Assembly: GCA_014904845.1 (NCBI GenBank)
Contig: MU119297.1
Span: forward strand, 124,001-188,000
DNA: 64,000 nt
Direction: 5' to 3'
Origin: Acephala macrosclerotiorum
Lineage: Eukaryota > Ascomycota > Leotiomycetes > Helotiales > Mollisiaceae
In this document: piece by piece, positions 43,038 to 60,928 of the stretch
Position numbering within the stretch: position 1 is the first letter of the stretch
Layout of the letters: each line of letters begins with the position of its first letter
The notes under the pieces: model-generated
Database searches by the model: none
What the model saw: the letters and a program-made list of their open reading frames with translations, nothing else
Told to the model about the DNA's origin: nothing
Translations under genes and position numbers: made by a program

Positions 43038-43120
43038 AGTCCCGAACGTGGTTCGAACACGTGACCTGAAGATTATAACATTTACTGCAATCTTCCGCTC
43101 TACCACTGAGCTATCGAGAC
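43038..43120 (-). tRNA. tRNA-Cys(GCA) with a canonical anticodon-loop intron
   Basis: The minus strand folds as a complete cloverleaf. The acceptor stem GTCTCGA pairs with TCGGGAC (one G-U), followed by discriminator U73, which is usual for eukaryotic tRNA-Cys. The D arm is GCTC-AGTGGTA-GAGC, the anticodon stem GAAGA/TCTTC and the T arm ACGTG-TTCGAAC-CACGT. The loop reads TTGCAG, then an 11-nt intron (TAAATGTTATA), then A38, so the anticodon is GCA and the intron is at the standard 37/38 site. A and B boxes are intact. Confidence 0.93.
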
Positions 43121-59641: not shown

Positions 59642-60712
59642 ACGCATGTTCTGAAAAGGGTCGTAGCAGAATCGCTTGGCAATTTCATTTCATGGGAAAG
59701 GGGCACATTTCATGGGGAAGGGTGCCGAATGAAGATAATTGTCTAACTCGATGTTTGTGACTATTTGCCCATCTTTAGAGAACTTGACAACTTGACTCCG
59801 CGAGGATAAAAAGGGTTTGGGCTCCCAACAATTCCCATGGTTATGCTCTCTTCATTCATGTAGAGAATGGTCGAGACGACATTCCTGGGCTCCATTGGGC
59901 TGCAATGGGGAAATACAGCCACTCAATTCTGAATCACATGCTCCAAAGGACTTTGTGCCTTATGCTTGCTGGAATCTCCGGTCAACCAACTGAATTCAAA
60001 GTATGCAGAGATAGTGCTATTGTTTGCAGGGGGCACCACTCATTGAGGAGGGACATGTCTCAGAGCAAGAGGAGATTCCAATGCACACGTTTACTATGGA
60101 CCGTGAGCAAGGTTTGAACGATATACTCCGCCAGCCTGCGGCATTCATGCATGGTAGTCGACTCGCACTGATGGATAATGGTAGGTTTGCGCTGGAACCT
60201 CGTATGAGATATGGTTTGCCCCTTGAAAGGGGTCAAGGTGCTTTTCACTGTTCGCGAGGTGGCCGACGGAATTGAGAATGCGTAAATAGATCAGAGTATT
60301 CTCGCCGATTTTTAAGGAAGGACATCGAACATTAATCATTGCGTTTTGATTGGTGAGAGTTGGAGTGGCGATTATGAAAGCTTGACAAATAATGTCGAGG
60401 GTTTTGACATGGGCTTTGTACTTCACTAGCGGCTAGACAAGATTGTAACAAAGAGACAAAGGGCATTCAAAATTCCCATTTCAGCTTCGAGTTCTTCTGA
60501 TGTGAAATCACTTTTGCTAGAACTAGCGTCGAAATCGCAATGTACAAAATAGTGAGGCATGAGGATATCCAGTTTATGTTGAAATTCTCGGCTGCTGCAA
60601 GGGGGGCTCGCTTGCCAAGAGCCCACTCCACTTTAGGAAAACTTTTCCCCCACAAATCAAATGCCTGTATAAGTTTGAATATGAAGTTTATCGTCATCCA
60701 ATCAGGACAGCG
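59642..60712. other. Intergenic, 1.07 kb, weak coding-like stretch
   Basis: The plus-strand stretch at about 60,030-60,275 reads with coding-like content (EEGHVSEQEEIPMHTFTMDR), and a short ATG frame at 59,905-60,117 precedes it in another frame. I find no valid intron joining them and no family. The rest is featureless. Confidence 0.3.
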
Positions 60713-60839
60713 TCCGATATGGTGTAATGGTTAACATCTGTGCTTTTCACGCACGAGCTCGGGGTAAGCGTTCCTATTTCCTCATCTTTGTAACAATCTC
60801 GTTCTAACACTGTTAAAGGTTCGATTCCCCGTATCGGAG
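60713..60839 (+). tRNA. tRNA-Glu(TTC) interrupted in the T-arm by a spliceosomal-type intron
   Basis: The acceptor stem TCCGATA (60713-60719) pairs perfectly with TATCGGA (60832-60838), with discriminator G 60839. The D arm GTGT/ACAT and anticodon stem TGTGC/GCACG enclose TTTTCAC, so the anticodon is TTC (60746-60748). The T stem breaks after CGGG: 55 foreign bases (60764-60818) precede the last stem G and loop TTCGATT. Removing exactly these gives T arm CGGGG-TTCGATT-CCCCG and a 72-nt tRNA, the normal size of tRNA-Glu. The A box (TGGTGTAATGG) is intact, and the B box (GGTTCGATTCC) remains intact in the DNA because the insert ends in G. A T6 run follows the gene. It could be active or a recently interrupted copy. 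Confidence 0.85.
60764..60818 (+). other. Intron-like insert inside tRNA-Glu T-arm
   Basis: 55 nt starting GTAAGCG, with CTAAC at 60804-60808 (branch A 60807, 11 nt before the end) and ending TTAAAG. Length, donor, branch site and acceptor match the spliceosomal introns of neighbouring protein genes (43-85 nt in most cases). It is not at the 37/38 site used by eukaryotic tRNA introns and has no bulge-helix-bulge that I can see. It contains no run of four T, so it should not end Pol III transcription. Confidence 0.8.
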
Positions 60840-60845
60840 AAATAC

Positions 60846-60851
60846 TTTTTT
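60846..60851 (+). terminator. Pol III T6 terminator of tRNA-Glu
   Basis: Six T residues beginning seven bases after the discriminator base. Confidence 0.75.
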
Positions 60852-60908: not shown

Positions 60909-60928
60909 TTCGATTCCCCGTATCGGAG
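60909..60928 (+). repeat. Duplicate of the tRNA-Glu 3' end
   Basis: Twenty bases identical to 60820-60839 (T loop, T-stem 3' strand, acceptor 3' strand and discriminator) repeated 89 bp downstream without the rest of the tRNA. It looks like a tRNA fragment left by a local duplication or an insertion event. Confidence 0.85.

Follow-up and report, generated by a model that had tools for sequence, protein, structure and literature searches.

A nuclear transfer RNA (tRNA) gene of the fungus Acephala macrosclerotiorum very probably functions with a U2-type spliceosomal intron in its T stem, and appears to be one of many such genes in its genome. The gene, encoding tRNA-Glu(UUC), lies at positions 60713-60839 on the forward strand of the 64,000-nucleotide (nt) stretch analysed here (contig MU119297.1, positions 124,001 to 188,000, assembly GCA_014904845.1), hereafter the window, to which coordinates given without a contig refer. 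In the genome examined (69.66 Mb, 778 contigs), 16 inserts of the spliceosomal type were readable in 14 tRNA genes, located in the D arm, the variable loop or the T stem. The best reading of these sequences is that spliceosomal introns have colonised tRNA genes and leave their transcripts by splicing.

The interrupted tRNA-Glu(UUC) gene

The gene at 60713-60839(+) matched the Rfam tRNA model RF00005 from end to end with 36.9 bits (gathering score 29). An earlier sequence-only reading had proposed a full tRNA-Glu(UUC) split between T-stem positions 52 and 53 by 55 nt, and both this match and the coordinates of exons and insert agree with it. Exon 1 (60713-60763) covers positions 1-52, with the anticodon TTC at 60746-60748, and exon 2 (60819-60839) provides position 53, the T loop, the 3' strand of the T stem, the 3' acceptor strand and the discriminator G. 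The spliceosomal-type intron between them (60764-60818) begins with GTAAGC, ends in AAAG and contains the branch-site motif CTAAC at 60804-60808, with a putative branch A at 60807, 11 nt from the 3' splice site; start, branch site and terminal AG are all as first described. Excision from GT to AG had been said to restore a 72-nt tRNA, and does so with an ARAGORN score of 120.4, with the refinement that the cut slides over four equivalent placements, one of them GT-AG and three further ones equally compatible with the product, so that the window gene alone leaves the intron boundary unfixed. In the unspliced sequence, no tRNA was called by ARAGORN at 60713-60839.

The internal promoter boxes and the terminator, likewise described as intact, were found to be so. 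The A box region in the D arm (60720-60730, by eye) is uninterrupted. The B box GGTTCGATTCC (60818-60828) is intact in the DNA, its first G being the G of the intron AG; introns at 52/53 leave the B box whole because this G takes the place of G52. A run of six T residues resembling an RNA polymerase III (Pol III) terminator is present at 60846-60851, and the longest T run of the insert is TTT, in keeping with the reported lack of TTTT. Group I or II intron cores were not found, as Rfam at gathering scores identified only two tRNAs in the window; 55 nt is in any case far too short for an intron of either group.

Recurrence, signals and boundaries of the inserts

Inserts similar to that of the window gene were first met in a second Glu(UUC) gene (C98) and in genes for Glu(CUC) (C313) and Thr(UGU) (C27). 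A genome-wide pattern combining the B box with a T run returned 91 rows, against 5 in the control, and 29 distinct sites were classed on contigs C1-C8 and C23-C73 (sites on C9-C21 and most of those beyond C73 being left out), comprising 20 tRNA genes, two unresolved sites and seven that were not tRNA; eight of the 20 genes had an insert outside the anticodon loop. The search for further tRNA genes with such inserts, suggested by the sequence-only reading, thus yielded the 16 inserts in 14 genes, within the reach of patterns that could not detect introns inside the B box. Inserts in the T region occur in both Glu(UUC) genes (window and C98), two Glu(CUC) genes (C73 and C313), Thr(UGU), Arg(UCG), Pro(CGG), Ala(AGC) and Leu(CAG), one in the variable loop occurs in Trp, and those in the D region belong to Thr(UGU), Ala(AGC), Ala(CGC), Gln(CUG), Gln(UUG) and Phe(GAA). 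Beyond what had been noticed in the window, therefore, the inserts recur genome-wide, and some genes combine two of them with a normal intron at 37/38: Thr(UGU) and Ala(AGC) have an insert in each arm together with an anticodon-loop intron of 14 and 20 nt, respectively. Canonical introns at 37/38 are likewise present in this genome, several of the interrupted genes included. After exact excision, with an anticodon-loop intron of up to 40 nt allowed, ARAGORN called a tRNA in 13 of the 14 genes; unspliced, it called none (0/14). The identities of Leu and Phe and the tRNA position numbers were assigned by eye; ARAGORN locates the anticodon-loop introns of these two genes elsewhere and for that reason labels them SeC and Ser, respectively.

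Other searches contributed less. As a census, a genome search with RF00005 was rejected, since 63 of 2302 candidates were scored and the window tRNA-Cys (56 bits) was missed. CTAAC before a B box was found at 10 places genome-wide (control, 9), a pattern without enrichment that was useful for finding genes only. Two tRNA-like loci, L074 and L099, were left out of all counts. At L091 (C23:190271 region) an Asp-like tRNA, so identified by eye, has an anticodon-loop insert of about 57 nt, apparently without splice-site signals, and at L072 (C2:738368-738408) a lone B box with a T run, some 30 nt downstream from an intact tRNA-His gene, may be what is left of a 3' half, like the partial copy in the window described below.

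The 16 inserts are 47-59 nt long (mean 52.2) and all have GT..AG ends. These ends are not independent evidence because they were required when most of the inserts were found; positions +3 to +6, the branch site and the length are independent, except in the four inserts that match the CTAAC finding pattern. The 5' splice site has a purine (R) at +3 in 14, G at +5 in 15 and a pyrimidine (Y) at +6 in all 16 inserts, and Y precedes the AG in 12. GTRNGY is present in 13/16, against a frequency of 5.5% among the window's GT..AG segments in this length range. CTRAY was also found in 13/16, the other three having TTAAC (twice) and CTAAA (once), with the branch A of CTRAY or its nearest variant 9-16 nt from the 3' end. 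Among the 12 inserts outside the CTAAC finding pattern, nine contain CTRAY with its A 8-17 nt from the 3' end, compared with a mean of 0.77 and a maximum of four in 5000 shuffles.

Candidate messenger RNA (mRNA) introns of the window provided a local comparison. Fourteen frame-joining GTRNGY..AG segments were found without requiring a branch site and include a 51-nt intron of the window's own SNF2 gene; CTRAY occurs in seven of them, which have a median length of 51 nt (44-79) and branch distances of 8-16 nt, and the remaining seven, without CTRAY, may be false. The tRNA inserts thus share the predicted layout of the window mRNA introns in U2-type consensus, length and branch site. No clear sequence family, such as recently multiplied introner-like elements would form, was apparent among the 16 tRNA introns, the comparison being confined to these: the best interior identity between two of them was 66% (gapped), and shuffles of another pair reached 60%. 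The SNF2-type protein is 92% identical to that of Phialocephala subalpina (Helotiales, Mollisiaceae) and 86% to that of Mollisia scopiformis; among the 120 matches listed, others spanning at least 85% of the query have at most 81% identity. These values would place the host among the Helotiales near P. subalpina, though at 92% probably not in that species itself. For P. subalpina, the genome paper gives 69.69 Mb, 91 annotated tRNA genes and a mean intron length of 80.2 (PMC5148876).

Intron boundaries were determined by comparing paralogues. The exons of an interrupted tRNA-Trp gene (C108, L105) match an uninterrupted copy (C113, L017) at 72 of 72 positions, and a single piece of 59 nt can be removed from the interrupted gene to give the uninterrupted one in one way only, which is GT..AG. 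The Trp pair thereby fixes one boundary, where the window gene with its sliding cut does not. Two interrupted Glu(CUC) genes, C73 and C313, do not differ at any of 78 exon letters, a 7-nt intron at 37/38 included; their T-region introns align in 38 of 58 columns and their flanks in 61/105 and 46/96. In such genes, selection or gene conversion appears to keep the exons constant as introns and flanks diverge. Five Glu(CUC) genes were found, four of them interrupted; C11 has an insert of 58 nt, C144 one of 53 nt and C14 none, these three being known from coordinates and end sequences only. An ARAGORN scan of all cut positions in 15 inserts was rejected as a boundary test, because odd variable loops were tolerated; being too loose, this unbiased scan leaves the boundaries to rest on the paralogue comparison.

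Function, transcription and alternative explanations

Both Glu(UUC) genes that were found are interrupted, and no uninterrupted tRNA-Glu(UUC), a copy that the sequence-only reading had wished to see sought, was detected in genome pattern searches. A pattern running from the Glu D arm to the anticodon (up to three mismatches) occurred at 44 places (control, 73); only the window gene matched exactly, and the remaining 43 are all more than 1 kb away from any site of the B box and T-run pattern. The Glu-type 3' end occurred at 11 places, three of which are the two Glu(UUC) genes and a partial copy in the window, the remaining eight being judged not tRNA-like on reading. TTTC-R before a B box was found at 32 places, as in the control (32). 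Two of these sites, both on tRNA-like B boxes, were unreadable and were not counted: C9:388186-388215, with the spacing of an uninterrupted TTC anticodon and a 3' end, CGCTTTCA, unlike that of the Glu genes, and C249:49596-49638, with the 3' end AGAGGTCA; both fall outside the 44 D-arm matches. GAA is read only by the UUC anticodon, and one frame of 877 codons contains 29 GAA and 29 GAG codons. Given a complete assembly, the window gene would have to be functional.

The partial copy is a 20-nt exact second copy of the tRNA 3' end at 60909-60928(+), 89 nt downstream of the tRNA and followed by a T run of its own. It looks like a partial tandem duplicate, probably outside the gene, in which the exon part alone is still recognisable; the preceding part is only loosely alignable with the intron.

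Upstream, an element resembling a TATA box, TATAGATTTAAATAAGCA, was present with at least 14 of 18 matches in 13/14 interrupted and 25/26 uninterrupted tRNA genes (40 examined), a level reached by fewer than 0.3% of shuffled flanks. The median distance from its start to the tRNA is 44 nt in both groups of genes, most starts falling 30-60 nt ahead, and tRNA genes of this genome may rely on it. The window gene, with 13/18 letters at 60668-60685(+), is the sole interrupted gene below the threshold; judged as a nuclear tRNA gene, it has every other feature looked for. The window tRNA-Cys(GCA) gene at 43038-43120(-), which has an ordinary 11-nt anticodon-loop intron, has the same upstream element.

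Several observations weigh against a working, spliceosome-matured gene set. In the scan of all cuts, GT..AG alone came out best in the window gene and in the D-arm insert of Thr and tied for best in Pro, but it was beaten or outside the five best in the other 12 inserts. The intron interiors of C73 and C313 are 59% alike (shuffles of the interiors, mean 45%, maximum 60%), so their divergence is not complete. An uninterrupted tRNA-Glu(UUC) may be missing from the assembly, or a diverged copy could have escaped the pattern searches. Three of the six D-region inserts fall inside the A box (positions by eye), where they should impair the binding of TFIIIC if the upstream element is not enough on its own, and TTTT, a weak Pol III stop, occurs in two of the 16 introns. 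Finally, the second Glu(UUC) gene (L103, C98:23610-23796) has a clean 47-nt T-arm intron, an 18-nt anticodon-loop insert (by eye) and a D-loop insert that starts with GTAAGT and contains CTGAT but lacks AG at its end and was left out of the 16; once the T-arm intron was removed, no tRNA was called by ARAGORN, and at least this one interrupted gene may be decaying.

The C98 gene would fit the view that the interrupted genes are dead or dying, with introns in redundant tRNA genes and uninterrupted copies doing the work, and such copies are indeed known for Trp (L016, L017) and, by its coordinates, Glu(CUC) (C14). As a general account we consider this unlikely. Exact excision gives a tRNA in nearly all of the genes, the splice and branch motifs are kept, the promoter element is retained in 13 of 14, and for Glu(UUC) there is no uninterrupted gene among those found. 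The exons are identical in both paralogue pairs while introns and flanks differ, a pattern that gene conversion could also produce. The sequence-only reading had left the choice between a transcript matured by the spliceosome and a freshly interrupted dead copy with a new intron; the latter is disfavoured by recurrence and by exon identity between paralogues, and the occurrence of the insert type in 14 genes, the identical exons and the want of any uninterrupted Glu(UUC) among the genes found favour the former.

It is highly improbable that RNA polymerase II makes the interrupted genes within longer RNAs that are spliced like mRNA, with the tRNA either released or not made at all. The three split A boxes could weaken recruitment of Pol III and would suit such a scheme, which is opposed by the shared position of the TATA-like element in interrupted and uninterrupted genes and by the terminators, 12 of the 14 interrupted genes matching a B box pattern that requires a run of five T residues (T5) within 42 nt. 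None of the 16 introns contains T5, which is weak evidence since shuffles have a mean of 1.36. We give next to no credence to the idea that the inserts are ectopic introns excised by the endonuclease of tRNA splicing and that they resemble GT..AG introns by coincidence. The layout is similar to that of the ectopic introns of Cyanidioschyzon merolae (PMC3978253), but the inserts carry a 5' splice site and a branch site and keep to a narrow range of lengths, none of which an endonuclease substrate requires. The junction structure typical of such substrates, which the sequence-only reading had set against its own proposal, was found in canonical bulge-helix-bulge form (four central pairs and a flanking helix; only this form was scored) in 0/16 inserts at any equivalent placement, compared with 1.3% of random junctions. 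None of the 16 lies at 37/38, the canonical position of eukaryotic tRNA introns.

Proposed maturation and relation to known systems

Under spliceosomal maturation, the window gene would be transcribed as a unit from the TATA-like element and internal boxes to the T run, probably by Pol III. The spliceosome would recognise GTAAGC, CTAAC and AG, the 55 nt would leave by the lariat pathway and the T stem would be restored. Splicing would precede or accompany end processing, in which RNase P, RNase Z and CCA addition would play their usual parts. In genes that also have an intron at 37/38, the tRNA endonuclease and ligase would have to work on the same transcript. The introns perhaps originated by reverse splicing into abundant tRNAs, the reverse transcripts of which then underwent recombination. 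Where the A box is split, the upstream element may compensate, by analogy with the proposal made for C. merolae (PMC3978253).

It is likely, though we say so with less assurance than for the window gene itself, that this fungal lineage let spliceosomal introns spread through its tRNA set, so that much of its tRNA complement, with the sole functional tRNA-Glu(UUC) among it, depends on the spliceosome and some precursors need the endonuclease too. Protein synthesis would then depend on splicing directly through the supply of tRNA, and short, tightly folded RNAs of Pol III-type genes could be routine substrates of the spliceosome. Filled and empty paralogues with identical exons would constitute natural experiments on intron gain, and tRNA gene finders would undercount or misname tRNAs in such genomes.

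Spliceosomal introns in fungal U6 small nuclear RNA genes were reportedly described by Tani and Ohshima in 1989 and by Canzler in 2016, and U6 is made by Pol III. As in the inserts described here, a spliceosomal intron there interrupts a small structured Pol III RNA in fungi; the present case differs in that the host RNA is a tRNA, that 14 different genes are involved with up to two such introns each, and that some of the transcripts would also need another splicing system. The U3 small nucleolar RNA of fungi offers a similar case, a short non-coding RNA gene with GT..AG introns and branch sites, which were judged normal spliceosomal introns from sequence (PMC5832005); compared with these, the present inserts are confined to 47-59 nt and occupy several sites of the cloverleaf. 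The same paper, of 2017, states that U3 and U6 were so far the sole small structured RNAs known to be often interrupted by introns (PMC5832005). A literature search revealed no precedent for spliceosomal introns in nuclear tRNA genes, subscription papers being mostly outside its reach so that an unseen report is possible, and a 2026 review describes tRNA splicing as spliceosome-independent (PMC13149111). Within the sources available, U6 and U3 are the nearest precedents.

Among tRNA introns, the layout is most readily compared with that of C. merolae, in which a tRNA gene can hold as many as three introns (11-69 bp), with split A and B boxes and upstream TATA-like sequences (PMC3978253). The two systems have in common introns away from 37/38, several introns per gene, split promoter boxes and a TATA-like upstream sequence; the introns of C. 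merolae form a bulge-helix-bulge and are cut by the endonuclease, whereas the inserts described here fail the canonical form and have splice and branch sites. From the canonical 37/38 introns of the same genome, they differ in position, length, signals and presumed enzyme. Introns of tRNA and mRNA are treated as separate worlds with separate enzymes; if the inserts are cut by the spliceosome, that border has been crossed at scale in one genome.
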